NCBI GenBank assembly: GCA_021805275.1 | Contig: JAJZFQ010000218.1 | Location: 1 to 56,253 of the forward strand | DNA from: Pseudomonadota bacterium | GTDB taxonomy: Bacteria; Pseudomonadota; Gammaproteobacteria; Steroidobacterales; Steroidobacteraceae | Length of the DNA stretch: 56,253 nt | Direction of reading: 5' to 3' | In this document: one piece after another, positions 38,314-55,837 of the stretch | How positions within the stretch are numbered: position 1 is the stretch's first letter | Layout of the letters: the number at the start of each line of letters is the position of its first letter | Notes under the pieces: generated by a model | Told to the model about the DNA's origin: nothing | The model's database searches: none | What the model saw: the letters and a program-made list of their open reading frames with translations, nothing else | Translations under genes and position numbers: made by a program

Positions 38314-38336
38314 TCCAGGTCTTCCTCGGTCTCACC

Positions 38337-38826
38337 TCAACGCTGGCCGATCTCTCCGACGCGCTCGCGCAGCGATGTGCGATCGAGACTGGCGATTGGC
38401 CAGCACATGAAAAGATCGATCCGCCGCTCCAAGATCCTGAATGTCTCCTCGACGGCCGGCTCGATCGTGCGCGCAGCGCCTTGAACAGCCGCCGGATCGT
38501 CCCCCGGTGTCCAGTCACGGGCTGGCCGGGCCAGAGCGGAACAATTCGCCGGCCGCTCGGTTGCAGACCGTGAATGCGAAATCGAGCCGTGGGTCGGCGG
38601 TTGCGGAAGCCTCCTCCCAGCTCTTGCCGTGCAAACCGCTCCCGGCCATGTCACAGCGCTGCCGCAGGTCAAGAGCACTTGAATCCACATGACCGGCGGG
38701 ATGACTGCCGGCGCTGCAAGCGTGAGATCCGCCCCGACCGCGGTTCTCCAGATACGCTCCGGCAAGGATACTCCGCGCGGAATTTCCGCTGCATGGCAAC
38801 AGGACGCTGTACGCGGAGTCGGGCAT
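38337..38826 (-). pseudogene. Broken LMW-phosphatase-type arsenate reductase
   Basis: Two different frames on the minus strand together give one LMW-type arsenate reductase. From 38826 the first frame shows the catalytic loop CSGNSARS, then CSAGSHPAGHV and RLDFAFTVCNRAAGE; it hits a stop at 38515. The second frame carries on from about 38560 with PGDDPAAVQG and RILERRIDLFMCWPIASLDR to a stop at 38337, the usual family C-terminus. A frameshift near 38560 joins them. The gap after AYLENRG may be another small loss. It lies between arsR and arsC, as an old operon member superseded by the two other arsenate reductases. Confidence 0.75.
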
Positions 38827-38865
38827 GACCCATGAGGCGCAGCGCGCAGCTTGGCCCAGAATGAG

Positions 38866-39234
38866 CTATGCGCGCCGCTTTTGCTTCCTCGCATCCGCCG
38901 CCACGGTTGCAGCGCTCAGTGGTTGGCAATCGGGCCCGCACGCCTCCTCGGCGAGAGAACAGCAATTCTCGGTCAAAAAACCCACCACCGTCTGCATGCG
39001 CTCGAGGTGAGCGCGATAGTGCAAGTTGCGTCCCTCCCGGCGACTTGTGACAAGACCGACATTGACCAGCTCTCTGAGATGAAATGACAGGGTCGGCGCT
39101 GGGACGCCGAGCCGTCGGGTGAGCTCTGTGGGCGTGTAGCCGGCCGGACCGCGCTTCACCAGCAGTCGAAATATCGCCAAGCGTGCCTCAGAGGCAAGTG
39201 CGCTGAGCGCGGAGATGGCGTCTTTTGATTTCAT
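38866..39234 (-). CDS. arsR: ArsR-family arsenite-responsive repressor
   Basis: A 122-residue winged-helix repressor. The helix-turn-helix is around 36-58 (TELTRRLGVPAPTLSFHLREL) and the wing at 61-74. Arsenite would bind the C-terminal cysteines C91-C92 with C99 (and perhaps C103), a position like that in the Acidithiobacillus ferrooxidans ArsR rather than the helix site of the E. coli plasmid protein. It starts the leftward arm of the ars cluster; a TTTG-N9-CAAA dyad at 39236-39252 lies right before the ATG and may be the operator. Divergent from arsI across 1 kb. Confidence 0.9.
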   Translation of the reverse strand: MKSKDAISALSALASEARLAIFRLLVKRGPAGYTPTELTRRLGVPAPTLSFHLRELVNVGLVTSRREGRNLHYRAHLERMQTVVGFLTENCCSLAEEACGPDCQPLSAATVAADARKQKRRA

Positions 39235-40239
39235 GTTTGCAAGGATATCAAAGGATGGGCACCCGGCAACCCGGCGATGTGCGGTCGGACCGGATGCTGT
39301 CCATCGTGCGCTGGCGCATCCCGGCGGATGCGAGCCGCTGCATCGAATGACCCCCGGGAAGCAGATCCACCCATCGCCAGAGACTGCCCGGCCGGGACAC
39401 TGGAAAGTCTTCTTAAGCGGCTCAGGCGCTCGGCGGCCAGTGTGCTGAAAGGCGCCGAGCGCATCGCCCCGGACTCGCCGTTACATGGCTCGTCGCACAC
39501 CACGGGCGAACAGTGCCTTCATCTTGGCCGGCTCGAGGGCGGTGGTGAGTCCGTCCTGCCGATTGCCTGAGGGAGCTTCCGTGACTTGCAACGTCACATC
39601 CTGACACCGGCGGGCCAACGAATCGATGCGCCCTTTTTCGCGTCCGCGGGTCGCGGGCGAGTCCCGTATTCACGCTGCGCGCCAGCCTCGCGGACATACA
39701 GTCCCGTACCGTCTTCTGTGGCATGGGCACCTGTCTAAAAATAGCGAGGTGGATCGTGGCGCCATGCAGCGGCCTGATCACCTGCGGAACGATCGAGACG
39801 ATCTCAGGTGCAATCAGAAATACAGACTTCGCGGACCCGCCAACGGTCATGTCGTCGAGGACCTCGACCGTGGCTTTTGCGGGGTTGGAGACCGCCAGGA
39901 GACCTCAGAAATGCTCGCTGGCGCGGGGAGCACTGGGCGTGCGAGCCTCGATGCCGGCTGCCGTCCCTCCGCACGGCGATCGGATTCATAAGGAAGATCG
40001 CTCATCGCGGCCGCTGGACGTCGTAGGAAGCGCTGCGAGGTCCGAACCGCACGCCGCATTCGTGCATTCATTTCACTTCGATAGTCTTGAAAGCATCAAA
40101 TTAAATAGGGTATCCTGTTGTGCGGCACCGGAATCGCTGCCCTACGGGGTGTGTGCGTATCGAAGTGCCGGAAACCCGGGCACAGCGTGAACGCTCGCCG
40201 TGCGAGCCGGCAAGCGACCGGTTAGAGGAGGAACGTCGA
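39235..40239. other. One-kilobase region without an intact gene in the ars cluster
   Basis: Short frames occur on both strands (for example 39422-39850 minus and 39723-40190 plus) but none has a start with ribosome site, a domain or even codon usage. The region ends in an AT-rich promoter before arsI. It may be the remains of deleted arsenic genes, but I recognise no relic. Confidence 0.5.
40087..40116 (+). promoter_or_regulatory. Candidate promoter of arsI-acr3-arsC
   Basis: TTGAAA (40087-40092) and TATCCT (40111-40116) are 18 bases apart in an AT-rich patch, about 120 bases before arsI. The -35 region contains a TTGA-N5-TCAA dyad (40087-40099) that an ArsR protein could bind. Confidence 0.45.
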
Positions 40240-40668
40240 ATGAAACGACTGCATGTTCACGTCGGCGTCGAGAGCCTGGCGGCGTCGGTCTGCTTCTACT
40301 CCGCGCTCTTCGGGACCGAGCCCACCGTGCTCAAGGCCGACTACGCCAAATGGATGCTGCAGGACCCGCGGATGAACTTTGCGATCAGCCAGCGCGGGGC
40401 GGCCCCAGGCATAGAGCACCTGGGCATTGAGGTCGAGAATCACTCGGAGCTGCAGGAGGTGTATGCCCGCTTGAGGCGCGCTGCACGGCCAGTAGTCGAG
40501 GAAGGCCCTACCGCGTGCTGCTACGCCGAGAGCGAGAAGAGCTGGATCGCGGACCCCCAGGGCGTGCTCTGGGAGACGTTCCTGACAAGCACTGAGAGCA
40601 CCGTGTACGGCCACGATACGATCCGGCCGTCAACGACGGCCAATTCAGCGTGCTGCGCACCGGTTTAA
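40240..40668 (+). CDS. arsI: ArsI-type C-As lyase (VOC/glyoxalase fold dioxygenase)
   Basis: A 142-residue VOC protein. Likely Fe(II) ligands are H5, H60 (IEHLGIEV) and E112 (GVLWETF); the vicinal pair C93-C94 in TACCYAESEKSW is the trivalent organoarsenical-binding site that marks ArsI. The enzyme uses oxygen to split the C-As bond of methylarsenite and aromatic arsenicals. A short tail adds another CC pair (138-139). The start has a strong GAGGAGG site. It is the first gene of the rightward arm, before acr3. Confidence 0.88.
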   Translation: MKRLHVHVGVESLAASVCFYSALFGTEPTVLKADYAKWMLQDPRMNFAISQRGAAPGIEHLGIEVENHSELQEVYARLRRAARPVVEEGPTACCYAESEKSWIADPQGVLWETFLTSTESTVYGHDTIRPSTTANSACCAPV

Positions 40669-40723
40669 AGCCCGAGCGCCGGCGGCGGCCGGTGTGACCC
40701 ATGCATGCCGTAGGAGAGCTCAA

Positions 40724-41815
40724 TTGTCACGGTTCGAACGCTATCTGACGCTTTGGGTGGCTCTGTGCATCGCCGCGGGCATTGCCCTGGGCAAGCTAAT
40801 GCCCAGGCTCTTTCACATCATTGCGTCGGCGCAAGTGGCCCAGGTGAATCTGCCGGTCGCAATACTCATCTGGCTGATGATCGTGCCGATGCTGGTCAAG
40901 ATCGACTTCGGCGAGCTGCAACGGGTGAAGGATCACTGGCGCGGGATCGGGGTGACGCTGTTTGTAAATTGGGCAGTCAAGCCGTTCTCGATGGCGCTGC
41001 TCGGGTGGATCTTTATCGGGCACCTGTTCCGCTCCGCCCTGCCGGCCGGGCAGATCGACTCGTATATCGCCGGGCTCGTCATTCTTTCTGCCGCACCCTG
41101 TACGGCAATGGTATTCGTCTGGAGTCAGCTCTCGAACGGCGAACCACACTTCACCCTTTCGCAAGTTGCGCTGAACGACCTGCTGATGATCTTCACCTTT
41201 GCGCCGATCGTTGCACTGCTCCTCGGTCTCGCGGCCATCACGGTGCCGTGGCAGACGCTGCTGCTGTCGGTCGCTCTTTATATCGTCATCCCGGTCGTGA
41301 TCGCTCAAGCCGTCCGGCGCCACCTGCTGGCTCGAGGTGGCGAGCAAGCTCTTCGCCGCCTCCTTATAGTCCTGCAACCGGTGACCCTGGTTGCATTGCT
41401 CGCGACACTGGTGGTGCTGTTCGCGTTTCAAGGCAAGCAGATCGTCGCCCAGCCGCTGGTGATCGTTCTGCTGGCCATCCCCATCCTCATCCAGGTCTAT
41501 TTCAATGCCGGACTGGCCTATCTCCTCAATCGGGCCCTGGGAGAAGCACATTGCGTCGCCGCGCCCTCCGCCCTGATCGGCGCAAGCAATTTCTTCGAGC
41601 TCGCAGTGGCGACAGCGATCAGCGTCTTCGGTATCGGTTCGGGGGCCGCCCTCGCAACGGTCGTGGGCGTGCTGGTCGAGGTTCCGGTGATGCTCTCGGT
41701 GGTTCGGATCGTCAACCGCACCAAGGGCTGGTACGAACGCAGCGGTGCACTGCCGTGCGCTGCCCCCGGACCCGCCGGCCCGAACGAACCGCCCCGCGGA
41801 CCGGAGCGGGCATGA
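40724..41815 (+). CDS. acr3: ACR3-family arsenite efflux permease
   Basis: A 363-residue membrane protein with about ten hydrophobic segments. The [30 protein letters not shown] (conserved Cys) and [21 protein letters not shown] segments are hallmarks of ACR3 arsenite/proton antiporters. I chose the TTG at 40724 because TAGGAGAG sits just upstream and the conserved start [15 protein letters not shown] follows; a GTG at 40694 is the alternative. It exports the arsenite made by the ArsC enzymes. Its TGA overlaps the arsC start (ATGA). Confidence 0.93.
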
Positions 41816-42252
41816 TCCGGCGAATTCTCTTTCTGTGCGTCGCCAACTCCGCCCGCAGCCAGATGGCCGAAGGTCTTGCGCGGAACCTCCTCGGCAATCG
41901 CGTCGACGTGCTGAGCGCCGGCTCGCAACCCACGAGGGTCAACCCGTACGCCATTGAGGCGATGCGGGAGGTCGGCATCGATATCTCCGGTCACCGGTCG
42001 AAGTCGGTGGACGGGATTGACACCGCGACGCTCGATCTGGTCGTCACGCTCTGCGCCGATGAGGTCTGCCCGGTTCTTCCCGGTGGAACCCGCCGGCTGC
42101 ACTGGCCGATCCCGGACCCCGCCTCGTCAGATCCGGCCCTTTCTGCCGAGGAATTGCGCCAGAGATTCCGCGGCGCCCGCGACCAGATTCGCGCTCGCAT
42201 GGACATCCTGGCGACGCTGCTCGATCTACCCACAGGCCCGCAATCCAGGTAA
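41812..42252 (+). CDS. arsC: Thioredoxin-type (LMW phosphatase fold) arsenate reductase
   Basis: A 146-residue enzyme with the P-loop CVANSARS (Cys9 to Arg15) and the redox cysteines C81 and C86 ([13 protein letters not shown]) that shuttle the disulfide to thioredoxin. DPASSDP and the C-terminal helix match the family. The start overlaps the acr3 stop by four bases. The reading frame continues after its TAA into a VOC domain, which is described as a separate entry. Confidence 0.9.
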
Positions 42253-44021: not shown

Positions 44022-44400
44022 GGGGAGTGTCTGATTTTGTGTTTGAGGCGATTTTAGCAACTCCTGCCACAACAGGCGGCCATGGTGAACACGAGCATCG
44101 CGGCCTGAGCAGTCTACTGCCATGCGAATGTTCTTGTGAATCGGTCTCCGTAGGCGATGGCGAATTGGCTCATCGCCACGCTCCATTCCTTGGCCGATCG
44201 GCTCCAGTCGGCCGTGATGTTCCTCAGTGCCAGCCAGATCAGCTGGGTCGCCGCGCCATCGCTCGGGAAATGGCCACGAGTCTTGATGCTCTTGCGCAGT
44301 CGAGCATGCACGCTCTCGATGGCGTTCGTCGTGCAAATCAAGCGGCGCACTGCCGGAGCGCAGGCGAAGAACGGTATAAACCTGTCTCCGAAGTACCCTA
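44022..44400 (-). mobile_element. Remnant of an IS256-family insertion sequence
   Basis: The minus strand of 44114-44400 encodes the C-terminal part of an IS256-type (mutator) transposase, including the family pattern LICTTNAIESVHARLRKSIK followed by TRGHFPSDGAATQLIWLALRN. The catalytic N-terminal three-quarters are missing. The sequence from 44022 (ggggagtgtctgattttgtg) resembles the IS terminal repeat at the 3' end; no partner repeat is seen on the other side, where the element stops abruptly at the end of the mannitol-dehydrogenase-like gene. It cannot transpose by itself. The 270 bases left of it (43749-44021) hold no gene that I can support. Confidence 0.8.
44114..44400 (-). pseudogene. 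IS256-family transposase, C-terminal fragment
   Basis: About 95 residues remain, starting near LGYFGDRFIPFFACAPAVRR and ending FTRTFAWQ before a TAG at 44114. The third acidic catalytic residue lies in TNAIES; the other two Asp and all of the DNA-binding region are gone, so no active protein can be made. Confidence 0.8.
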
Positions 44401-45813
44401 ACCTAGCAGCAGCCCGCCTCCATCGTGCGCGAGTCGCCTGTGGGCCTGCTCTATTGCCGAGCGCAGCCGCGGATCGCCCGCACACGGTCCCCACACATTG
44501 GCAACGTTGCATAAGGTCGCTATCGGATCCGCCGTCTCGGCCAGCGACCGTGCCATGGCGGGCGACAAACCTCCGTCCTCGTGCATCCAGATTTTCTCGC
44601 CCCGCTGCCATTGCCGCAGAAATCGGAGGTACAACGCCGGCGCTAGCGCCACACCTTCGATTCGTTCGCCAGCCCGAAGTCGCTCACAGATCGTCGGTAC
44701 AATGAATTGCTTCAGCTTCGCGAAACTATCTTGCGCCACTCGCTGAAGCGTATCCCCAAGGGCGGCATTGCTGAAACGTGAAAGTACAGTCTTTTGGTAT
44801 TCATGCAGGTCGACGGGGCTCGGCTCAAGACACTGGATCACATCCTGCTGGTATGCCGCGACCCAGCTGCAAATTTGCCGGTCACGCACCGCCCTATGAA
44901 CCTTCGTGTATCCCAATAGAGCCCCTGCCCATGCAATCACGCTGTGACTGCCATTTAAGATGCGAATCTTCGCATCCTCAAACGGCTCTACCCGATCGAC
45001 CAGCTGTACGCCGACATGCTCCCAGTCCGGTCGTCCACTACAGAACCGATCCTCGATCACCCACTGCGAAAACGACTCACTCGTCACCGGCGCCATATCA
45101 ATGACTCCGGTTGCGGCGCGTACACGTTCACGCAATTCTACCGTGGGCCGAGGCGTAATTCTATCGACCACCGAATTCGGATTTACCGTATGGGATCGCA
45201 CCCACCTAAGAAGCTCGGAATTCCCGCTACGCTCGATGAACTGTAGCAATCCGCTGCGTGATAGAGCGCCGTTATGGCGCATATTGTCGCAACACAGTAA
45301 CGTAACTGCCCCAGAGTTCCGTCGGTAACGTTCGGCCAAAATCAAAGCAAGCGCGCCGTAAATTGTGCACCCGCCTCTACCGCTGTGTGCCGTCTTTAGA
45401 TCCGCCTGAATATCCGGATGTGACTCTTCAAGAACGCCTTGCGCGTCGAGACAATATCCCGCTTCAGTCACAGTGAAGGAAATGATTTGTGTCGTTGGAT
45501 CAGCCCCGATCCGCACGAGTGAATCCAGCGACGACTGCCACGAAACCACCCGCCGAATCGACGCGATCCGGGTGTACTGCAAATCTCCAACAGGCGTCAC
45601 CGTTTCCAGCGTGAACTGCCCGTGTTGGCGCTGCAGGGCATTCTCCGTCTCCGCCATGTCTGCCCGGATATTTCCGCTGGCGAGCACCCAGCGCTCGTCT
45701 CCATTGTCGTGAAGCAACTGAAGATACGCCGCTTGATGCGCTCGATGGAATGCTCCGAGGCCTAGATGCAGGATCACCGAATGGTCATGCAGCGGCATAT
45801 TTGTCGTTTTCAA
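44398..45813 (-). CDS. Mannitol dehydrogenase-family polyol or hexuronate oxidoreductase
   Basis: A 471-residue NAD(P)-dependent enzyme of the polyol-specific long-chain dehydrogenase family. The cofactor loop GLGAFHRAHQ is at 18-27 and the active site K282-x4-N287-x2-H290 (AKIRILNGSHSVI). Relatives act on mannitol, arabinitol, fructuronate or tagaturonate; which one is not clear. It starts at a TTG (45813) overlapping the esterase stop, or at an ATG five codons on. The C-terminus ends abruptly (GGGLLLG) with its TAG in sequence shared with the IS256 remnant, so the last residues may be replaced. Lower GC than the left half of the window. Confidence 0.88.
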   Translation of the reverse strand: MKTTNMPLHDHSVILHLGLGAFHRAHQAAYLQLLHDNGDERWVLASGNIRADMAETENALQRQHGQFTLETVTPVGDLQYTRIASIRRVVSWQSSLDSLVRIGADPTTQIISFTVTEAGYCLDAQGVLEESHPDIQADLKTAHSGRGGCTIYGALALILAERYRRNSGAVTLLCCDNMRHNGALSRSGLLQFIERSGNSELLRWVRSHTVNPNSVVDRITPRPTVELRERVRAATGVIDMAPVTSESFSQWVIEDRFCSGRPDWEHVGVQLVDRVEPFEDAKIRILNGSHSVIAWAGALLGYTKVHRAVRDRQICSWVAAYQQDVIQCLEPSPVDLHEYQKTVLSRFSNAALGDTLQRVAQDSFAKLKQFIVPTICERLRAGERIEGVALAPALYLRFLRQWQRGEKIWMHEDGGLSPAMARSLAETADPIATLCNVANVWGPCAGDPRLRSAIEQAHRRLAHDGGGLLLG

Positions 45814-46745
45814 CTAGACAGGGCCCGGCGTACAACTTCGCCCGCGTATGCCACTGCCTCCCTGCCCTGATCGAAGTGGCTTCCCAGACTGAAGAACGCA
45901 TGGAGCATCCCGTCGTAACGTCTCAGCTCGACCTTAATCCCAGCATCACGCAACCGCTCTGCATACCGCTCACCTTCGTCGCGCAGCGGATCGCATTCCG
46001 CCGTAATTACCAGCGCCGGGGGAAGTCCCGCGAGGCTTTCGGCGCGCAACGGAGACGCAAGCGGGTTACGTCCTGCATCCGGGTCCGACAGGTAATGGTG
46101 CCAATGTGAAATCATTGCCTCGCGCGTCAGCAAATATCCGTCGGCAAATTGCTGATAAGACTGCGTCTCGAATGCGTAGTCCGTCACCGGATAGACCAAT
46201 AGCTGAAATGCCAATTGAGGCCCTCGCTCGGTACGCGCAAGTTGCGTCACCGCTGCGGCCAGATTTCCACCCGCACTATCTCCACCAATTGCCACTCGCG
46301 TCGAGTCCCAGCCGAAGTCTGCGCCATGATCAACCACCCACTGCAACGCGGAGTAGCAATCACGCGGAGCAGCAGGAAATTTATGTTCGGGCGCCAATCG
46401 ATATTCGATCGAAACGATGACACATCCTGATGCGAGCATCAGATCTCGACACAGCGGATCATGTGATACCAGATCACCCGCAATCCACCCCCCGCCGTGC
46501 AGAAAGAGCAGCACCGGGAGCTCGAGAGAGGAAACAGGCTGGTACACTCTCGCTTGCATCGCCTGCCCATCGCCCCCCGGAATCGTCAGCTCGCGCACCT
46601 TGGCGGGCGCGATATCTCGTCCCCCTCCACCCAGCAGAGCGCGCAGCGAATCACGCGCCTCTGCGACGCCCAGCGGCCGCTGTGTTCCGCCAGTTTCGGC
46701 GGAAATTCGGTCTATAAATTTCTTGGCCTGAGGATGTAATGGCAC
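45810..46745 (-). CDS. HSL-type alpha/beta hydrolase (esterase/lipase)
   Basis: A 311-residue enzyme of the hormone-sensitive lipase family: oxyanion motif HGGG at 83-86, nucleophile Ser157 in GGDSAGG, the catalytic Asp in ECDPLRDEG and His in GMLHAFFSL. It splits short-chain esters, probably in the cytoplasm because no signal peptide is visible. The GTG at 46745 with AGAGAGG upstream starts at the conserved PLHPQAKKF; an earlier start at 46805 is weaker. It overlaps the dehydrogenase gene, so product ester alcohol and dehydrogenase substrate may be linked. Confidence 0.9.
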   Translation of the reverse strand: MPLHPQAKKFIDRISAETGGTQRPLGVAEARDSLRALLGGGGRDIAPAKVRELTIPGGDGQAMQARVYQPVSSLELPVLLFLHGGGWIAGDLVSHDPLCRDLMLASGCVIVSIEYRLAPEHKFPAAPRDCYSALQWVVDHGADFGWDSTRVAIGGDSAGGNLAAAVTQLARTERGPQLAFQLLVYPVTDYAFETQSYQQFADGYLLTREAMISHWHHYLSDPDAGRNPLASPLRAESLAGLPPALVITAECDPLRDEGERYAERLRDAGIKVELRRYDGMLHAFFSLGSHFDQGREAVAYAGEVVRRALSS

Positions 46746-46877
46746 TTGAAACCTCTCTAACGCCCTTCGCTTATGCACCAACAGCCGCGTGGACATTCCG
46801 CGCAACAGGCATTAGATCGACTGACAACCGCCTTGGGCCATCAAGTGTCTGCGGCATCGCAGCTACGTGAGGTCCGG

Positions 46878-47969
46878 TCAACGAGACTTCACGGCTTGTC
46901 GCCCGCGCAGATTACATGCGAATCCAGCTTTCGATGTCGGCTTCGTTGGGGTCGTCAGAAAATCGCGCAATGTATCTGCCCACAGATCACTGTCTGCGCC
47001 TGAAGCAAGATGCCCTTTGGCGCTCTCGAGTTCCACATACCGCCACTTGACTCCTGCTGCGTCAAGCAGAGGACTCAGAGCGTCTATCAGTTTTGGAGTG
47101 AACATCTCATCGCTGCGTGACAGAACATAGAGCAATGGTGCGCGCATCCGCTGGAGCTCTCCGCGCACATCAAATTCCTCGACCGCACGCGCCAGAATTA
47201 CCAATGATCCCGGATCAAATGCCTCCGCCCACTCGGCTGCAATCCGGTTAAGTTCACGCATCCTTTCATTTTCGTCGCGAAAGCGACTCCGCAACTCCGC
47301 TTCAATTCCATACCGCTCAAGCGTCTGCAGCCGAAGCCGGGTTAGCCACGGCGCCAGCGCTCCCTTTTTATAGAGACCGTTCTGCCATCTAGGCTCTTGC
47401 GCAAGGCTCTGCAGGAGCCCCTGCGCATCTACCACACCTTCCGGGCAATAAGGCGCCCCTACAGCCGCAATAACGCGACCCACGCGTTCTGGATAGCGCG
47501 TAGCCCAGAGGAACGCCTGCATTGCACCGAGAGACGGTCCCGCCACAGCCGCCAACTGATGGATCCCAAGGGAATCAATCAGCCGGCACTGAGCATCGAC
47601 GACATCACCCAGCGTGATATGCGGAAACTCCATGCCATATGGACGGCCGGTGCTCGGATTAATCGAGGCAGGTCCCGTGGAACCGTAGCTCGAGCCCAGC
47701 ATATTCGGACAGATCGCGAAGAACCGCTCGGTGTCGATTGCCCGCCCTGGTCCAATGAGCCCGCTCCAAGAGCCTTCCGCGGCATTGGATCCCGGAAACA
47801 GCATTCCAGGACCTGTCGTGTACCCATGCAACACAAGCACTGCATTCGATCGCTCCTCGTTTAAGCTACCGAGCGTCGCGTACGCAGTCGTCACGAGCGG
47901 CAGTACTTCCCCACTCTCAAGTGCGACGTTGCGAACCTCATGTTGCTGCAGGCTGCCTTTCGCGAGCAT
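46878..47969 (-). CDS. MetX-fold alpha/beta hydrolase or acyltransferase
   Basis: A 363-residue protein resembling homoserine O-acetyltransferase. The nucleophile Ser146 is in GPSLGAMQA, the stretch CPNMLGSSYGSTGPASINP is typical of MetX, and the acid and base are in SRSDEMFTP and KGHLASGAD. Several MetX-fold proteins in catabolic loci act as hydrolases rather than methionine enzymes, and no methionine gene is near. It begins nine bases after the TonB receptor stop. Role in removing an acyl group is an inference. Confidence 0.85.
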   Translation of the reverse strand: MLAKGSLQQHEVRNVALESGEVLPLVTTAYATLGSLNEERSNAVLVLHGYTTGPGMLFPGSNAAEGSWSGLIGPGRAIDTERFFAICPNMLGSSYGSTGPASINPSTGRPYGMEFPHITLGDVVDAQCRLIDSLGIHQLAAVAGPSLGAMQAFLWATRYPERVGRVIAAVGAPYCPEGVVDAQGLLQSLAQEPRWQNGLYKKGALAPWLTRLRLQTLERYGIEAELRSRFRDENERMRELNRIAAEWAEAFDPGSLVILARAVEEFDVRGELQRMRAPLLYVLSRSDEMFTPKLIDALSPLLDAAGVKWRYVELESAKGHLASGADSDLWADTLRDFLTTPTKPTSKAGFACNLRGRQAVKSR

Positions 47970-47978
47970 CGGCGTGCC

Positions 47979-50252
47979 TCAGAATCGATACGATGCCTCT
48001 CCGCCAATCGTCCGGGGCGGAATGATTCCTTCAACAAATGGGTTGCCGAGCGGATTGAGCACGGGAAGCGCCAGCCCTACATTGTTGATGAAATTAATTC
48101 CTCGTGAATTTCCAACGTTCTTTACATACAACATCAATCGCAGGCGATGCACATCGACGCCAACGTGAATATTTACTGTCGTATATGAAGGGACGGACAC
48201 TTTGTTCGATGGGAGATCGGCGGGATTTGGCGGCTGATGCTCCGTAAAATTCGACACGCGCTCCCCGATGTAATTCCAGGAAACACCCATGAAGGGGCGC
48301 AATCCGCCTGACACCACAAAACGATAATCCGCTACGAGCGAACCGGTCCACTTTGGCGAAAACGGCATGCGATCCCCATTCAAACCACCCGCCGCTGGCG
48401 CAGCTGAGGTCAGTCGTGAATTTGTGTACGCCCCGGTTGCTCGCACGGACAAGCCCCGAAGCGGCTCTATGAGCACCGTCGCATCGGCTCCGTCACTTCG
48501 CGCAGTGCCGCCATTTACAAAGTATTGGTACGAGCCCGCAGCCGTAGTAGTGCTGGTCTGGATCTGTACATCATTCCAATTGGTATCAAACAGCGCTGCT
48601 TCAACAGACCCCAATCCGTGAGCAAAATTGGACTTGAGACCTAGTTCATAACTCGTTACCGAAGACGGGTTGAAGGATTGCTTTCCACCGGCGACAACCC
48701 CTGGAGGCAGGGCGCTGGGGCCACCCGGTTGAAATCCGGTCGCGACTCGTCCGTATACTTCAGTGTGTTTTGAGGGCATGTAGCGCAGACTTGCCATGTA
48801 CGTGAGCTTGTTCTGCGCAACCTGCTGATTGAGAATAACTGGAACCGGCGAGAGCAGTGAAGTCTGGTAGTTCTGCGCGTAATTCTCTGTGTAATGCGTA
48901 TACCGCAAACCAAATTGAATTTGAAGCTTCGAGGTTATATCGTAACTGGCATTCGCAAACGGAGAATATTCGTCGTAAGTCGTGACGATCGCAGCATTTG
49001 CCACCGGTCCGAGCAACAGAAACGGCTGCAGATTCGGAGTAGTAAACGGATCTAGGGGGGGCAGCCGGTTGCCGCTAGCCTCGTGTGTGTAATACATGCC
49101 CAGCATGTAGTGAAGCGTATCGTGGAGGGCGGCCGCGTTCGCCCGAAGTTCCTCCGACCATCGTTTCGTATCGACGATCTGAAGGGTGCGAACCCCTAGA
49201 TTTGGAATCCCCAACAGTAGTGAAAACAGCGGCCCGAATGTTGCCGTCTGATCGACATTCGTATGAGCACTTATGGTCTGATAAGTCGTCGATGAAAGAA
49301 GCGCCCATCCCCCCACGCTTCCTTTTATGGTCGCGTTGTACACATCGAATGCGACGCGCTGCGTTTCTGGTATGTATGTGCCCCGGGTCAAGTCCCCTGT
49401 CACGGGCGTGAGCGATGGAGCGGTCACCTCCTGTGCGTTTATGCCGTTTGCTGAGAATCTCTGGGTAAGTCCCCAGACGTAGGCAGACCAGTCGTTATCG
49501 ATGCGCCATTTCCATGCGAGCCTCGCCACAGTCAGATTTGAGCTATTGACATCGTGCTGACCCGTAATTGGATCCGAGATAAAGCCCGGATCGTTACGTC
49601 GATAGACGCTCGCACGCACCGCGTTGTCCGAATTAATCGGAGCATTAAGTGCCATTCGAGCACTCCAGCCCGCTCCTCCCCCGTCGATCGCATCACCCCC
49701 GACGCCGACAGAACCGCCGAATGCCTTCGGATCCGGTTGGACGGTAACGAATCGCACCAAGCCGCCAATGGTTCCCGCACCGTACAAGGTGCCCTGCGGA
49801 CCTTCCAAGACCTCGATCTGCTTGACCTCAGAGGGCGGCAAATCCGGTGTAAGAATGCCACCGGTTGCGTAGGCTGTAACTGAACCGACCGGTGCGTCAT
49901 CTATGTAGAAGCCGGTCGAAGGCGTCGCCTGGGAGATGCCGGTACTCATGCCGCGCAGAACGACGGAACTGTAGCCCGGCGTCAATGCGGTCACTGACAT
50001 TCCGGGCACCTGCGCCGCGTAATCGGCGAAGCTGTTCATCCCATTTGCCGACAGAGATCGTCCGTTTAGCGCGACGACAGTCATCGGAACTTTTACGGCC
50101 GGTTGCGCAACCTTTTGCGCGGTCACTATGATCGCGGTAAGCATCTGCGGCTGATTCGGGCTGTTATTGCTATTGAATCGCGCAGGCGCTGCGCAGACGT
50201 TGCCGATTTGAGCGGCCGCAAGCAGCGGCGCAAGATATGAAATGTATTTCAC
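47979..50252 (-). CDS. TonB-dependent outer-membrane receptor
   Basis: A 757-residue receptor: signal peptide (1-24), plug with LTAIIVTAQKVAQPAVKVPM and the VLEGPQGTLYGAGTIGGLVRF hinge, then a barrel ending ...TIGGEASYRF with the terminal Phe used for outer-membrane assembly. The GTG at 50252 has GGAGGGGG seven bases upstream. It is distantly like the other receptor in the window (same group, different barrel). It is the first gene of the leftward hydrolase operon and is preceded by a palindromic operator, so it probably imports the substrate. Confidence 0.93.
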   Translation of the reverse strand: MKYISYLAPLLAAAQIGNVCAAPARFNSNNSPNQPQMLTAIIVTAQKVAQPAVKVPMTVVALNGRSLSANGMNSFADYAAQVPGMSVTALTPGYSSVVLRGMSTGISQATPSTGFYIDDAPVGSVTAYATGGILTPDLPPSEVKQIEVLEGPQGTLYGAGTIGGLVRFVTVQPDPKAFGGSVGVGGDAIDGGGAGWSARMALNAPINSDNAVRASVYRRNDPGFISDPITGQHDVNSSNLTVARLAWKWRIDNDWSAYVWGLTQRFSANGINAQEVTAPSLTPVTGDLTRGTYIPETQRVAFDVYNATIKGSVGGWALLSSTTYQTISAHTNVDQTATFGPLFSLLLGIPNLGVRTLQIVDTKRWSEELRANAAALHDTLHYMLGMYYTHEASGNRLPPLDPFTTPNLQPFLLLGPVANAAIVTTYDEYSPFANASYDITSKLQIQFGLRYTHYTENYAQNYQTSLLSPVPVILNQQVAQNKLTYMASLRYMPSKHTEVYGRVATGFQPGGPSALPPGVVAGGKQSFNPSSVTSYELGLKSNFAHGLGSVEAALFDTNWNDVQIQTSTTTAAGSYQYFVNGGTARSDGADATVLIEPLRGLSVRATGAYTNSRLTSAAPAAGGLNGDRMPFSPKWTGSLVADYRFVVSGGLRPFMGVSWNYIGERVSNFTEHQPPNPADLPSNKVSVPSYTTVNIHVGVDVHRLRLMLYVKNVGNSRGINFINNVGLALPVLNPLGNPFVEGIIPPRTIGGEASYRF

Positions 50253-50275
50253 CGAACCCCCTCCGAAGCGCATCA

Positions 50276-50297
50276 CTTTGATACGGCGGTATCAAAG
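50276..50297. promoter_or_regulatory. Palindromic operator upstream of the TonB receptor
   Basis: ctttgatac (50276-50284) and gtatcaaag (50289-50297) are perfect nine-base reverse complements around GGCG, 24 bases before the receptor start and just downstream of the FAD oxidase stop (50317). The AT-rich arms suit a repressor site; I found no second perfect copy. Confidence 0.55.
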
Positions 50298-50316
50298 CAC
50301 CCAACTCAATGAACCA

Positions 50317-51702
50317 TCAATCGCCGAAAATTTTTCCCGGATTCAGAATTCCGCGCGGATCCCACGCACTCTTGATGCGCTGCATCAGACTGATCACGTC
50401 TAATCCGCTCTCACTTAACAGTTGACTCTTTTTGCCGAGACCGATGCCGTGTTCACCCGTGCACGTGCCTCCGACCGAGTGCGCATGCTGGATCATCTCA
50501 GCGTAAACTCTGTGCACAGCCTCAGTTTCCAGAGGCTTATCTCGCATCGTCATGAAGATGACGTGAAAATTTCCATCGCCCACGTGACCCAGAATCGGCG
50601 CGATTAATCCTTCGCGGTCGATTGCGGCTCTTGCCCGGCTCACGGCGTCCGCAAGAGCAGACACCGGCACGCACACATCCGCGATGACGCTTTCGCAGCC
50701 CGGCCGCAATGCGAGTGCGGCGTAGTAGGCCATGTGTCTGGCGCGCCATAGCTGCGTACGCTGTTCTGGATGTGTGGCCCATTGGAAGTCAAGCCCGCCG
50801 TGCTCGGCCGCGACTGACTTCGCAATGGCTGTCTGCTCCTCGATGACGGATGGACTCCCGTGAAATTCGAGAAACAATGTCGGTAATTCAGGCAGGCTGA
50901 GGTGTGAATAGCGATTACTTGCGCGTACTTGATGCTCGTCGAGAAATTCGATACGGGCGATCGCCAAACCCGATAGGCTTAACTGGGTCACTGCGCTTAC
51001 CGCTGCAGACAGGTTGGGAAATGCGCAACTTGCCGCAGCCACGGCGATCGGAACTGGGTAGAGACGCAGCGTCAGCTCCGTGATGATGCCGAGCGTCCCT
51101 TCGGAACCGATCACCAGACGGACCAGATCGAACCCTGCTGAAGACTTTCGGGCCCGAGTACCCGCGCGAATGAGTTGTCCATCAGCCAATACGATTTCCA
51201 ACGCAAGCACGTTGTGCCACATCGAGCCGTACAGCATGGTTGTAGTGCCCGATGCCCGAGTAGAAGCCATGCCACCGAGTGTTGCATTGGCACCGGGATC
51301 GACTGGAAAGAACAGCCCAGTATCTTTCAGCTGAGCATTGAGGTCTTCGCGTGTCAAACCCGGCTGCACGACACAGTCGGCATCCTCGGCGTGTATCGCG
51401 AGAATCGCGTTCATGCGCGACATATCCACGCAGATGCCGCCGTGAGGCGCACTCACGTGCCCCTCGACCGACGTGCCGGCCCCGAACGGCACTATCGGCA
51501 CGCGATGCTGGTTGCAAAGTGCGGCAATGGCGCGGACTTCGTCCTTGTTTTCAGGCCAAGCAACTGCGTCTGGCGCGAGGTGCGTGGCGCGACCTTCGCC
51601 GCGCGCATGCTGATCGCGCACTGCGGCCTGGGTGCTGATGCGGTTACCGAGTAACCGCTCAAGTGCAGCCACAACAAAATTCAGTGCTGCAGGGTCGTTC
51701 AC
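50317..51702 (-). CDS. FAD-linked oxidase (GlcD/D-lactate dehydrogenase-like)
   Basis: A 461-residue flavoenzyme of the vanillyl-alcohol-oxidase fold. The FAD pyrophosphate loop is PFGAGTSVEG at 72-81, with DPGANATLGGMASTRASGTTTMLYG next; the C-terminal HVGDGNFH and TGEHGIGLGKK motifs plus DPRGILNPGKIF are those of glycolate or D-2-hydroxyacid dehydrogenases. It oxidises a 2-hydroxy acid and passes electrons to the respiratory chain. The GTG start overlaps the regulator stop (GTGA at 51699-51702). Confidence 0.9.
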   Translation of the reverse strand: MNDPAALNFVVAALERLLGNRISTQAAVRDQHARGEGRATHLAPDAVAWPENKDEVRAIAALCNQHRVPIVPFGAGTSVEGHVSAPHGGICVDMSRMNAILAIHAEDADCVVQPGLTREDLNAQLKDTGLFFPVDPGANATLGGMASTRASGTTTMLYGSMWHNVLALEIVLADGQLIRAGTRARKSSAGFDLVRLVIGSEGTLGIITELTLRLYPVPIAVAAASCAFPNLSAAVSAVTQLSLSGLAIARIEFLDEHQVRASNRYSHLSLPELPTLFLEFHGSPSVIEEQTAIAKSVAAEHGGLDFQWATHPEQRTQLWRARHMAYYAALALRPGCESVIADVCVPVSALADAVSRARAAIDREGLIAPILGHVGDGNFHVIFMTMRDKPLETEAVHRVYAEMIQHAHSVGGTCTGEHGIGLGKKSQLLSESGLDVISLMQRIKSAWDPRGILNPGKIFGD

Positions 51703-52490
51703 GTCTTGATCCGCAGTACGGCTGAGGATGAAGGCGCTTCACCCTGCTGCGGGCCATGTCCCTCCTGTCGAGCCACATGCACTAAGGCCAGATCGAAGTG
51801 ACAGGACATCGCCGATGCGGCGCCCAGCGGGTCACCGGCGCAGATTCGCTCAACCACTGCCTCGTGAGCGTCTATGACTCGCGTGAGCTCAGTCGCGCTG
51901 CGACTATCATGAAGATGCATGCGGGAGGACTCCTCAACCGGGGCTCGTAATGCGCCCAGGAGGAGGCTATTCAGAGGATTGCCGCTTGCCTCGGCGATGA
52001 CATTGTGAATTGCCATATCGCTCGCGACTCGGCGAGCGTGGTCGGCGCCGGCCGAGCGCATCTGTGCCGCCAGTTCGCGCAGCAGCCGACGTTGCGCATC
52101 AGTTGCATAGCGCGCCGCGAGCTGAGAAGTCTGGATCTCCAGTGCTCGGCGAGTCTCGAGCACATGCCCGAGCGTCACCTGCGAGGTGGTCAGCGCGTAG
52201 TCGAAAAACTGCGTGAGAACCTGCGCGTCAATGACGCGCAGCCGCGGGCGACGTCCACTCTCGATCTCAAGAATGCCCAGCGCCGCCAGCGCTCGATACG
52301 CCTCGCGCACGCTGCCCCGGCTGATCTGAAGTTCGCGCCCAATCTGCAGTTCGCTTGGCACGACACTGCCGGGAAGCAGACGCTCCCGGCGCAAGAGTTC
52401 CAGGAGGTGGCGCACGACCTTCGCCGAGAGCTGGGAACCCTGAATCGGTGCCAAGGTGGTCACTGGCGTAGGGCGCGACATGAGAGTCAT
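51699..52490 (-). CDS. GntR-family regulator with FCD ligand domain
   Basis: A 263-residue regulator: winged helix at about 24-88 (VVPSELQIGRELQISRGSVREAYRALAALG) and an FCD all-helical domain with the metal-binding Asp and His residues (VASDMAIHN, IDAHEAVVE, MSCHFDLA). FCD regulators respond to 2-hydroxy acids, uronates or similar carboxylates (LldR, UxuR and GlcC types), which fits the neighbouring oxidase. It probably controls both arms of the island through repeats at 52521-52608. A second in-frame ATG at 52481 is possible. Confidence 0.92.
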   Translation of the reverse strand: MTLMSRPTPVTTLAPIQGSQLSAKVVRHLLELLRRERLLPGSVVPSELQIGRELQISRGSVREAYRALAALGILEIESGRRPRLRVIDAQVLTQFFDYALTTSQVTLGHVLETRRALEIQTSQLAARYATDAQRRLLRELAAQMRSAGADHARRVASDMAIHNVIAEASGNPLNSLLLGALRAPVEESSRMHLHDSRSATELTRVIDAHEAVVERICAGDPLGAASAMSCHFDLALVHVARQEGHGPQQGEAPSSSAVLRIKT

Positions 52491-52520
52491 GGACAGCCAC
52501 GGTAGCCCTAGATCACCTAC

Positions 52521-52608
52521 TTGTCAAACAGGTTGGACAGGTTTAGGGTGTGACTTGAGGGCTTAGGCGCTTTATAGCCTCCATTTCAGTTGTACATATT
52601 GGACAGGC
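52521..52608. promoter_or_regulatory. Candidate GntR operators in the divergent promoter region
   Basis: 52521-52540 is an imperfect palindrome TTGTCAAAC-AG-GTTGGACAG (7 of 9 positions pair). The half-site ttggacagg recurs at 52599-52607, 66 bases on, right before the plus-strand hydrolase gene. TTGTC/GACAA-like halves are usual for FCD regulators. Confidence 0.5.
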
Positions 52609-52629
52609 TGGACTTCGCGGAGACTCCTT

Positions 52630-53394
52630 ATGACGGAACCTGGGCAATCCATTCGGCCCGGACTGATCTTGCTGCACGGTGCAACGTTGAATGGTCGAAT
52701 GTGGGATCCGGTGCGTCGGATGCTCGACCCGCGCTGGCAGGTGATCACGCCGGATCTGCCCGGGCACGGAACTCGGCACGGTGAGCAATACTCGCTCGCG
52801 AGCGCCGCAGACGCAGTTCTCGCCGCAACCCAGATCGCAGGCAACGGCCCGATCGTGCTGGCAGGAGACTCGCTCGGCGGATACAGCGCGATGGCGGCCG
52901 CATCGCAAGTCCCTTCAGCACGCCTGAAGGGATTGATCCTCGGTGGTTGCACCGTGAACTTCGTTTCGGGCGCGCTGCGCGCCTTGCGCTGGCGCGGACG
53001 GCTCGGCGGATGGACCGCCAAACTGTGCGGAGAGCAGCGCTTCGTGCGCGGCCACGTAACCAAGCTCCTCAGCAGCATGGGTTATGGCCAGCAGGACATT
53101 GACGCGCTGATTCAGGGTGGCATCCACATCGATGCCTTCGCGCAAGCAGTCAAGGCGCTCGCGAACGTCGACTTTCTACCCCGGCTGGCTGCAATCGGAC
53201 AACCCATACTCTTTTTCAACGGCCTCCGAGATAAGTCCGCAATGGCCCAGGAAGCCGAATTCGTGGCGGCCGCGCGCAACGCAGAGTGTCAGCATTTCGA
53301 CTGTGAGCATGGGGCATCGCTGCGTAAAGCACACGAATTTGCCGCGATGACCGATCGATTCATCGCACGTGTCTGCGGAACACCCGAACGATGA
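52630..53394 (+). CDS. Alpha/beta hydrolase
   Basis: A 254-residue hydrolase with LLHGATLNGRMWDP oxyanion region, DLPGHG, nucleophile Ser81 in AGDSLGGYS, and a probable catalytic His in CEHGASLRKAHEF. It has no signal peptide. The shape matches proline iminopeptidase/carboxylesterase-like proteins. It is the first gene of the rightward arm and overlaps the esterase gene by four bases. Confidence 0.85.
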   Translation: MTEPGQSIRPGLILLHGATLNGRMWDPVRRMLDPRWQVITPDLPGHGTRHGEQYSLASAADAVLAATQIAGNGPIVLAGDSLGGYSAMAAASQVPSARLKGLILGGCTVNFVSGALRALRWRGRLGGWTAKLCGEQRFVRGHVTKLLSSMGYGQQDIDALIQGGIHIDAFAQAVKALANVDFLPRLAAIGQPILFFNGLRDKSAMAQEAEFVAAARNAECQHFDCEHGASLRKAHEFAAMTDRFIARVCGTPER

Positions 53395-54323
53395 GCGACA
53401 CGACGCCCGCGAACGTTGCCGCAGATTTGACGAACGAATTGCGTCGGGTCATGCCCGGCATTCCCGACGAAGACCTGCCGCGATTTCTTGCTGCCGTGAC
53501 GACACCTGGCCCCTATTCTCCGGCAGCCGAAGCGACAGTGTGTGATGACGTGCCCCGGGGGCGACTACTGGAGCGGCGCTTTGTTAGCCGTTCCGTGTTT
53601 CCGGGCGTCGAACGCGACGTACGCGTTTACATTCCTCCCAGCACCCGCCCCGATGCCCTCCATGCCCTGATGGTATTCCAAGATGGCTCACGGTACCTCG
53701 GGCCGGAAGTCGGGATAGCCGGTGTTTTCGACAACTTGATCGCCGCAATGGATATACCGCCGACTGTAGGGCTTTTCGTTGAGCCGGGTGAGACGGGGCC
53801 AGGTCTTCCGATCTACGGCGGCGCCGGAAACCGAAGCATCGAGTACGACTCCCTCGGTGATGCGTACTCTCGCTTCCTGATCAACGAGCTGATCCCTGAG
53901 ACGACCAGCGGGATCGCAATCCCCGACAACCCACAATGCAGAGCCATTGTTGGACTCAGCTCCGGCGGTATTTGCGCGTTCAATGCCGCCTGGGAGCGAC
54001 CCGATTACTTCGGCAAAGTCATCAGCCACTGCGGCAGCTTCGTCGATATTCGCGGTGCCCACGTACTGCCCGCAAATGTACGCCGCCAACCCCGCAAACG
54101 ACTGCGTATCTTTCTGCAGACTGGTGAACACGACCTTGATATTCTGTTCGGCTCCTGGCTGCTGGGCAATCGCGCACTCGCCTCGGCACTCGAATACCGC
54201 GGCTATGATTACAAGCTCATCGTCGGTCAAGGCGGCCACTCACTCGCGCACGGCGGGGCAATCATCTCCGAGACACTCCGCTGGCTGTGGCGCGATTGGA
54301 AGGACAGCAGGAGTATCGCGTGA
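53391..54323 (+). CDS. Enterochelin esterase-like (Fes/esterase D type) hydrolase
   Basis: A 310-residue protein. The RDVRVYIPPSTRPDALHALMVFQDGS segment, nucleophile Ser190 in GLSSGG, and the C-terminal QGGHSLAHGG with the catalytic His match the esterase/Fes superfamily, which includes feruloyl esterases, glucuronoyl esterases and enterobactin esterase. No signal peptide is seen, so it works in the cytoplasm. It starts in the stop of the preceding hydrolase (ATGA) and ends in the start of the transporter (GTGA), so three proteins are made as a unit. Confidence 0.85.
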   Translation: MSDTTPANVAADLTNELRRVMPGIPDEDLPRFLAAVTTPGPYSPAAEATVCDDVPRGRLLERRFVSRSVFPGVERDVRVYIPPSTRPDALHALMVFQDGSRYLGPEVGIAGVFDNLIAAMDIPPTVGLFVEPGETGPGLPIYGGAGNRSIEYDSLGDAYSRFLINELIPETTSGIAIPDNPQCRAIVGLSSGGICAFNAAWERPDYFGKVISHCGSFVDIRGAHVLPANVRRQPRKRLRIFLQTGEHDLDILFGSWLLGNRALASALEYRGYDYKLIVGQGGHSLAHGGAIISETLRWLWRDWKDSRSIA

Positions 54324-55837
54324 GCAGCGCGCCAGCGCGCGGCGAGTTGCCGTCGACTGCCACACCACCCATCGCTGCCTCCGCAACAACTACGCACACA
54401 TTTCGCATCGGCGCTCCCTTCAAGTCCGGATACGGGATCGGACAGATCGTCGAAAGCATATCCACGGTCACGCTCAATACGTTTCTGTTCTTCTACCTGA
54501 CAAACGTATGCGGACTTTCCGGAGCCCTAACCGGCATTGCGCTGTTCGTCGCACTCGCTGTCGATGCCGTCGCGGACCCTGTTATAGGATCGATCTCGGA
54601 CAACCTGCGCACTCGGTGGGGACGCCGGATCCCTGCCATGGCCATCAGCCTCGTGCCCCTCGCACTAGCCTTGGGCCTACTCTTTTCCATACCACCCGTA
54701 TCTGGATGGCCGCTCTTCTTTCGCGTCCTGACAACCGTCATTGCGCTGCGCATCTCCATGTCGGCCTTCATCGTCCCGTACCTTGGCCTCGGCGCGGAAC
54801 TGTCGCCTGACTATGACGACCGCTCCAGCATCGTTGCGTTCCGGGTGATATTCGGCATGCTCGGCATGCTCATTCCGCTGCAACTCGGATTTGGCATCTT
54901 TTTAAGGGGCCACGAGGGCCTCCTCGACCGCACGGCGTACGCGCACTTCGGCTGGGTGTTGGCCGGCTCACTCTGGATAGCCGGAATGGTCGCGACCTGC
55001 GCTTCGGCAACGCGTCCTCCCAATTTACTCGCCACCCACCCGGCACCGGAACATGTGACACGGCGCCTAATCGGCGAGGTACACGAAGTGTTCCGCAACC
55101 CCTCATTTCGCATGCTCTTCGGCGGTGTGCTTCTGTTCTTTGTGGGCCAAGGGCTGACCAATGCGCTAGGACTCGACGCGAATCGCTTCTTTTGGTCACT
55201 CAGCGTCCCCCAGATCAAGACCGTGTCGTTGAGTCTGGTCGGCGGCCTTGCTCTCGGTCTGCCGTTCGGCTTCGCGCTCATCGGCCGGCTTGAGAAACGC
55301 ACCACCGTGCTAGGAGGAATAGCGATCTTTGCGTTGGCACAAGGTCTACCGGCGCTCATGAAGATAATCGGGCTCATCCCGAGCGACATTACTATCGAAT
55401 TCATTGTCCTCGTCAGCTCTTCCGTCGTAGCTGGCGTTGCAGCAACGCTGGTTACCATTGCGTTCCAGTCAGCCATGGCTGACGCTGTCGACGAACATGA
55501 GCAACTGTTCTTCGCACGGCGCGAAGGTCTCTACTTCGCGAGCCTCAGCTTTGCGTTCAAGGCAGCAACCGGGATTGGATCCATGCTCGCGGGATTTGTG
55601 CTGGAGGCAGTCCGCTTCCCAAGCTCGAAACTCGCGAAAGCACCGATCGAAGCCCTGCACATCGCCGCATCCGCCCTGCATGGAATCGGCCTCGCTTATG
55701 GGCCTGCCGCAGCCGTCATTACACTAACGTCGCTTCTATTCTTTTCTCGCTATCGCATAGATCGTGCAGCGCATGCAGCCATAAGCGCCGAGTTGGGTGA
55801 ACGCCGCGTTAGCCACGGGTACAAGAATGTTCCCTAA
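54320..55837 (+). CDS. GPH-family (MelB-like) sugar-cation symporter
   Basis: A 505-residue membrane protein with about twelve hydrophobic segments. The GYGIGQIVESISTVTLNTFLFF start, VDAVADPVIGSISDNLRTRWGRRIP loop and YLGLGAELSPDYDDRS segment are those of the glycoside-pentoside-hexuronide symporter family (MFS_2). Family members carry melibiose, glucuronides, xylosides or related sugars with sodium or protons. The GTG at 54320 has an AGGAG site. It is the last gene of the rightward arm. Confidence 0.9.
   Translation: MSSAPARGELPSTATPPIAASATTTHTFRIGAPFKSGYGIGQIVESISTVTLNTFLFFYLTNVCGLSGALTGIALFVALAVDAVADPVIGSISDNLRTRWGRRIPAMAISLVPLALALGLLFSIPPVSGWPLFFRVLTTVIALRISMSAFIVPYLGLGAELSPDYDDRSSIVAFRVIFGMLGMLIPLQLGFGIFLRGHEGLLDRTAYAHFGWVLAGSLWIAGMVATCASATRPPNLLATHPAPEHVTRRLIGEVHEVFRNPSFRMLFGGVLLFFVGQGLTNALGLDANRFFWSLSVPQIKTVSLSLVGGLALGLPFGFALIGRLEKRTTVLGGIAIFALAQGLPALMKIIGLIPSDITIEFIVLVSSSVVAGVAATLVTIAFQSAMADAVDEHEQLFFARREGLYFASLSFAFKAATGIGSMLAGFVLEAVRFPSSKLAKAPIEALHIAASALHGIGLAYGPAAAVITLTSLLFFSRYRIDRAAHAAISAELGERRVSHGYKNVP

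Follow-up and report, generated by a model that had tools for sequence, protein, structure and literature searches.

Does the end of this contig carry one pathway, and for which substrate? The window, by which we mean the whole 56,253-nucleotide stretch of Steroidobacteraceae DNA analyzed here (contig JAJZFQ010000218.1), holds at 44398-55837 nine genes for a polyol dehydrogenase, four alpha/beta hydrolases, a D-2-hydroxyacid dehydrogenase, a TonB-dependent receptor, a symporter and an FCD-type regulator. A sequence-only reading of the DNA had proposed that such a set imports an acylated sugar or polyol ester, cleaves it and oxidizes both parts. The idea of a single ester-degrading island is supported by sequence evidence, because the gene set is conserved elsewhere and has a common predicted operator; on these two grounds the import, cleavage and oxidation of a polyol ester is the best fit, and the identity of the ester is something that we can only infer. 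We place at slightly better than even (about 0.54) the probability that the nine genes form one FCD-repressed regulon for TonB-dependent ester import, cytoplasmic hydrolysis, and oxidation of a D-arabinitol-like polyol and a hydrophobic D-2-hydroxy acid.

Gene content and arrangement

All nine predicted reading frames are present at 44398-55837, and frames and Pfam domains confirmed the two divergent arms described earlier. The left arm, on the minus strand, comprises in the order of transcription the FCD regulator, an LDHD-type oxidase, the TonB receptor, a MetX-like hydrolase, a hormone-sensitive-lipase-type (HSL) esterase and the polyol dehydrogenase (DalD), and the right arm, on the plus strand, runs from an Abhydrolase_6 esterase through EstD (PF00756) to the GPH symporter. 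From left to right, the distances between genes are -4, 72, 9, 40 and -4 bp in the left arm, 139 bp in the divergent region, and -4 and -37 bp in the right arm, so that genes overlap by 4 bp at three junctions and by 37 bp at one; the GPH start codon may lie slightly further downstream than called. By coordinate, the domains of the left arm are Mannitol_dh/Mannitol_dh_C, Abhydrolase_3, Abhydrolase_1 (MetX-like), Plug with TonB barrel, FAD_binding_4 with FAD-oxidase_C, and GntR with FCD, and those of the right arm are Abhydrolase_6, Esterase PF00756 and MFS_2. The hydrolases do belong to four different subfamilies (Abhydrolase_3, Abhydrolase_1, Abhydrolase_6 and PF00756), as had been claimed.

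The gene set recurs in Burkholderiales

Genome contigs were scanned with an alignment of MetX-like proteins, the best 80 of 539 relatives were kept, and the nine window proteins were compared with 87 loci by tblastn. This neighborhood search found the orthologs clustered in nine of the 80 fetched loci (L008-L015 and L024; L and G numbers are our handles for loci and genomes), whose hosts are Rubrivivax, Scleromatobacter, three Massilia, two Pelomonas and two further Burkholderiales. Six core genes (oxidase, FCD, TonB, MetX-like, Abhydrolase_6 and EstD) were clustered in all nine Burkholderiales genomes, with tblastn identities to the window of 68-70% for the oxidase, 64-76% for FCD, 51-59% for the MetX-like hydrolase and 41-52% for the TonB receptor. 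Abhydrolase_6 is cut off at the edge of L011, and the adjoining L119 covers residues 10-248 of 254. EstD matched at E < 1e-95 in 9/9 genomes, although its position in G005 and G007, adjoining DalD, is slightly outside the locus. DalD itself is within the cluster in seven of the nine genomes, and that of Pelomonas aquatica (L024 9929-11176) splits into two tblastn pieces, suggesting that it may be broken or misassembled. HSL-type and EstD domains occur in a single open frame in L008, L009 and L010 (both domains were confirmed by scan in L010 and L009). The GPH symporter is replaced by an MFS family in 7/9 islands (PF07690 in one scanned member).

When 392 genomes from the family of Massilia were searched, a tenth island (G272) emerged, EstD being present in four of the 392, three of which had been found previously. 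EstD occurred in one of 369 genomes of the class sample and one of 399 of the order sample, each time the center genome itself. The island is therefore rare among the sampled genomes, and several bacteria of soil and plants have such a set clustered. Seven plasmid records that were opened had no island (two of 57 with an EstD match, two of 162 with a MetX-like match and three of 1014 with an oxidase match); one of the two opened MetX-match records carried a true MetX.

Both arms share a predicted operator

The LldR/FadR-type operator, TNGTNNNACNA, had two matches in the window, both outside the island span, and was absent from the regulatory stretches examined in the other loci. Ten divergent regions (window, L008, L009, L010, L012-L015, L024 and L092) were compared for shared k-mers, and a 9-mer, TGTTTGACA, was common to all of them. 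Centered on it is a predicted operator palindrome, AACCTGT-N3-ACAGGTT, which is present in 10/10 divergent regions compared and is, as a prediction from sequence, new here. In the window, Operator 1 (AACCTGTTTGACAAGTA, 52518-52534, minus strand) matches 12 of the 14 palindrome positions and overlaps Operator 2 (AACAGGTTGGACAGGTT, 52527-52543), which also scores 12/14. These two sites are the only ones of at least 12/14 in the 56 kb, and the mean in 20 shuffles was 0.05. The control loci (78 loci, 1,234,230 bases) had no site of at least 12/14, and 25 sites reached 11.

In L013/L095, L092, L094 and L096, which cover 4/4 Massilia/Telluria islands, sites that took no part in building the consensus and score 12-14 occupy the gap that separates DalD from EstD (or from the TetR gene preceding EstD); a further independent site precedes FCD in L014. 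We observed beside this operator a TetR-type regulator between DalD and EstD in L094 (1578-2273), L096 (9019-9639) and L092 (17618-18256), of which one copy was scanned.

A genome-wide search allowing at most one mismatch gave 20 distinct sites in 10 genomes, 16 of them in islands, and the reversed pattern gave five. Two of the 20 precede an unlinked HSL homolog (56-57% identical to the window HSL) in G004, where the island has no HSL match, and two lie inside frames scoring as SecY and M61 peptidase. In the same G004 locus (L117 8765-12850), a GH15/trehalase-like gene followed by a lipoxygenase gene is divergent from the operator-bearing HSL. As far as sequence goes, then, the hydrolases do not look unrelated, in that the predicted operator links them, the unlinked HSL included, to the dehydrogenase and the oxidase.

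Operator 1 holds a TTGACA -35-like hexamer (52522-52527), and a -10-like TACCGT (52499-52504, minus strand) lies 17 bp from it, which is weak at three of six matches. The TTGACA sits within the shared 9-mer and is hence present in all ten regions by construction. A -10-like hexamer lies 17-18 bp after it in 10/10 regions (16-18 allowed), with a mean of 3.4/6 matches versus 2.28 at control offsets. The apparent overlap of promoter and operator fits a repressor, and the position of the FCD gene makes its product the putative operator-binding protein; the window FCD promoter itself is tentative, because very few bases separate the hexamer from the annotated start of FCD.

Taken together, these comparisons indicate that the nine-gene set is not a chance assembly, because it recurs in nine other genomes and has a common operator in the divergent intergenic region. 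That each arm serves a different substrate, in a loose neighborhood, appears very unlikely to us: the arms are divergent and HSL, GPH and DalD are not constant, but the operator is common to both arms and to distant members, and the HSL-EstD fusions unite domains that stand on opposite arms in the window.

The polyol dehydrogenase groups with D-arabinitol 4-dehydrogenases

DalD (44398-45813, minus strand, 471 aa), a predicted D-arabinitol 4-dehydrogenase-type polyol dehydrogenase, narrowly passes NCBIfam NF043014 (D-arabinitol 4-dehydrogenase), with 603.0 bits versus a cut-off of 600. Scores elsewhere were 612.9 and 629.9 in two islands, 597.4 in L008 (with a long start; below the cut-off) and 750.1 for an off-island copy. 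In a 14-row tree it falls in an 11-row clade (support 100/99) with the annotated dalD of K. pneumoniae, apart from UxuB. A fructuronate reductase identity was dropped when the curated cut-off was failed. The uronate part of the earlier description as a polyol/uronate dehydrogenase is thus not supported. As to an independent recruitment of DalD, a single island clade was not rejected (approximately unbiased test, p 0.205).

The oxidase and the acid half

The oxidase (50317-51702, minus strand, 461 aa) had been called GlcD-like. That identity is not supported, since the protein scores 329.8 bits against the TIGR00387 glycolate oxidase cut-off of 567.9 and its pocket is LDHD-like. Its nearest solved structure is mammalian LDHD (8jdc; 465.8 bits over residues 11-458), and R322, H373, H380, E417 and H418 correspond to the LDHD subsite A residues Arg347, His398, His405, Glu442 and His443. 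The LDHD-like active-site motifs are kept in the window and in 10/10 islands; subsite B, counted along the window-LDHD alignment, is not matched in the same set (Trp351 to Tyr, Ser365 to Ile/Val). In a tree, a clade with 98/96 support unites the oxidases of the window and the ten islands with ten further proteins and leaves out four plasmid homologs. These residues and matches identify the enzyme, at the level of sequence, as an LDHD-type FAD-dependent D-2-hydroxyacid dehydrogenase.

The L012 and L014 islands include an Lrp-like regulator, whose L012 copy is 42% identical to a protein annotated as Lrp/AsnC, together with a 2-oxoacid:ferredoxin oxidoreductase-type gene (domain scanned in the L012 copy), and in Variovorax L007 an oxidase homolog also adjoins such a pair. 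On a K. pneumoniae plasmid, pKSB1_9A_2 (L001 11977-15373), a MetX-like gene (41%), a TctC receptor gene and an LDHD-like gene (49%) adjoin one another between insertion sequences. Both neighborhoods fit, at the level of weak support (2/10 islands for the oxidoreductase), a 2-hydroxy acid that is released from an acyl ester and oxidized to a 2-oxo acid.

Could the substrate be a known fungal polyol lipid instead? Arabitol and mannitol esters are made by yeasts and yeast-like fungi (PMC5749799, PMC11905612); the arabitol esters described there have 3-hydroxy fatty acids bound to the polyol, often with several acetyl groups (PMC5749799), and liamocins carry 3,5-dihydroxydecanoate (PMC11905612). 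The four esterases would then strip acetyl and 3-hydroxyacyl groups, DalD would take the arabitol, and the flavoenzyme would act on a side product. Multiple esterases and DalD suit such a lipid; the oxidase does not, since the acids are 3-hydroxy or 3,5-dihydroxy acids and mouse LDHD is reported not to oxidize 3-hydroxybutyrate. Among those of the island genes that were scanned, we recognized neither an acyl-CoA ligase nor a beta-oxidation gene. We regard this explanation as unlikely.

The MetX-like hydrolase lacks the Asp of MetX

The MetX-like hydrolase (46878-47969, minus strand, 363 aa, Abhydrolase_1) keeps the triad S146-D287-H320 together with Thr51, Arg213 and Tyr220, but Leu321 stands where MetX has an Asp. 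That Asp, which follows the catalytic His in the GHDxFL motif, is lost in 72 of 73 aligned MetX-like sequences, and the Arg and Tyr are kept. Arg, Tyr and Asp of MetX are described as lying around the active site and helping to bind acetyl-CoA and homoserine, in the literature consulted (among PMC10589216, PMC6937278, PMC9376091 and PMC11206623). A homoserine acetyltransferase identity was dropped (TIGR01392, 211.9 bits versus a cut-off of 500). By these residues, the wide group without the Asp (L016-L087) is probably not homoserine acetyltransferase, and its members, called homoserine O-acetyltransferase by some sources, would be unlikely makers of O-acetylhomoserine. A TctC-type family, named from one scanned member, is nearby in 13 of the 72 loci of this group, and no partner family occurs in more.

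Esterases, transport and regulator

The HSL esterase (45810-46805, minus strand, 331 aa, GDSAG at 175) passes the LipP1 hormone-sensitive lipase family NF058653 (371.2 bits versus 350). Abhydrolase_6 (PF12697; 52630-53394, plus strand, 254 aa) has GDSLGG at 79. EstD (53391-54323, plus strand, 310 aa), a PF00756 esterase of Fes/CE1-like fold, has GLSSGG at 188 and H283. Its top fold match by Z is Fes (27.4), and the structural comparison left Fes and feruloyl esterases unseparated. If EstD were a feruloyl/CE1-type enzyme, the island might serve a plant-wall or phenolic ester with an aromatic acid half, such as an aryl-lactate ester, which we consider quite unlikely.

The Fes match also raises the use of a xenosiderophore, imported by the TonB receptor (47979-50276, minus strand, 765 aa; PF07715, PF00593) and opened by EstD as an ester siderophore, and the receptor does give weak siderophore-receptor scores. 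However, EstD fails the enterochelin esterase equivalog PRK10439 (47.6 versus 222), the receptor stays below the cut-off for TonB-siderophore receptors (119.6 versus 223.5), FCD is not an iron regulator, and DalD and the LDHD-type enzyme would be left without a role; such a function is very improbable.

The symporter (54287-55837, plus strand, 516 aa) fails GPH TIGR00792 (129 bits versus 231.35) but passes Pfam MFS_2 (PF13347; 219.5 versus 27). The FCD/GntR regulator (51699-52490, minus strand, 263 aa; PF00392, PF07729), a putative repressor, fails the curated cut-offs for LldR, GlcC and NanR of 311, 301 and 260 with 70.1, 47.5 and 103.6. Of the nine N-termini, judged by eye, that of the TonB receptor alone resembles a signal peptide, so that ester hydrolysis is probably cytoplasmic.

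A proposed pathway and the points against it

We rationalized these results as a single FCD-repressed ester regulon, in which an intact ester would enter through the TonB receptor and then cross the inner membrane by the MFS/GPH carrier. Cytoplasmic cleavage by the HSL, EstD and Abhydrolase_6 esterases would release a D-arabinitol-like polyol, and its oxidation by DalD would presumably give D-xylulose. An acyl group on the acid half may be taken off by the MetX-like hydrolase, which has Arg and Tyr but no Asp in its pocket; the hydrophobic D-2-hydroxy acid set free in this way would become a 2-oxo acid through the LDHD-type flavoenzyme. FCD would occupy AACCTGT-N3-ACAGGTT at the divergent promoters and leave it in response to a breakdown product. 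Sequence shows which genes are present and that they are conserved, which families they belong to, which active-site residues they have and that an operator is shared; from this we infer that FCD binds this operator, the order of the steps, their cytoplasmic location, the direction of regulation and the nature of the polyol and the acid.

Several observations weigh against this reading. The window's own operators match only 12/14 positions; the FCD arm of L011 (G004, an eleventh divergent set) has no site above 9/14, which also counts for two separate arms, while two sites stand before its Abhydrolase_6. In G004 and G008 the best DalD copy is on a contig other than that of the island, and these off-island copies (L097, L098) have no site of at least 12/14, so that they double as a negative control. 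HSL had no tblastn match in 6/9 islands, and the oxidoreductase gene occurs in only 2/10. Because DalD passes its cut-off so marginally, with L008 just below it, compared with 750 for the off-island copy, a different polyol may be the substrate of the island enzyme, and no xylulokinase is in the island (no kinase among the nine genes by Pfam scan). A role of Arg and Tyr in clamping a carboxylate, and of Asp in clamping an amino group, goes beyond the description of these MetX residues cited above. The known arabitol lipids carry acids of the wrong type for the oxidase, as set out above, and no description of an arabinitol ester of a 2-hydroxy acid was found in the literature consulted.

A bolder version, which we offer tentatively, is that the island is a horizontally spread regulon dedicated to esters of D-arabinitol (or a close polyol) with hydrophobic D-2-hydroxy acids, its MetX-derived hydrolase having switched from amino-acid to hydroxy-acid binding through loss of the Asp. 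What was a vague esterase cluster is now predicted to be a regulon, whose operator can be tested and which offers a pentitol and a D-2-hydroxy acid as chemical handles; its natural substrate could therefore be searched for by induction.

Origin and neighborhood of the island

Over its first 34 kb the window has a G+C content of about 0.68, which becomes 0.62-0.63 at 34-44 kb and 0.55-0.62 in the island. This drop across 34000-56253 suggests that the last 20 kb were acquired, and fits a gain of the island by the window's organism from elsewhere; seven of the ten other islands measured were not below their flanks in base content by more than 0.01. A Mutator/IS256-type transposase fragment (44114-44611, minus strand; PF00872, 41.6 bits) overlaps the 3' end of DalD at the island edge. 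Beside the island, at 37837-42252, lies an arsenic-like set with a pair of distinct ArsC-type domains (ArsC family and LMWPc), an SBF-family carrier and a glyoxalase-family frame.

Comparison with known systems

A literature search for a cluster of this gene make-up found none, and the nearest known systems resemble the island in parts. Fes and the CE1 feruloyl esterases have a fold that appears similar to that of EstD at about 20% identity, and Fes chains have 379-395 aa versus 310 aa. Mammalian LDHD (PMC10589216) agrees with the island oxidase in subsite A but not at Trp351 and Ser365. MetX homoserine O-acetyltransferase and esterase E22 share with the window protein the sequence family, the triad and the tunnel Thr, Arg and Tyr, whereas MetX has an Asp after the catalytic His where the window protein has Leu321. 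On pKSB1_9A_2, genes for an alpha/beta hydrolase and an MFS protein follow on the far side of an insertion sequence, but the locus has no match to the window TonB receptor, DalD, FCD or EstD. Unlike the island, the Klebsiella dal neighborhood for D-arabinitol catabolism (L122) includes xylB, genes for an ABC transporter and one for a sugar-binding regulator, without an esterase in the stretch examined, while its D-arabinitol 4-dehydrogenase falls in the same clade as the window DalD.

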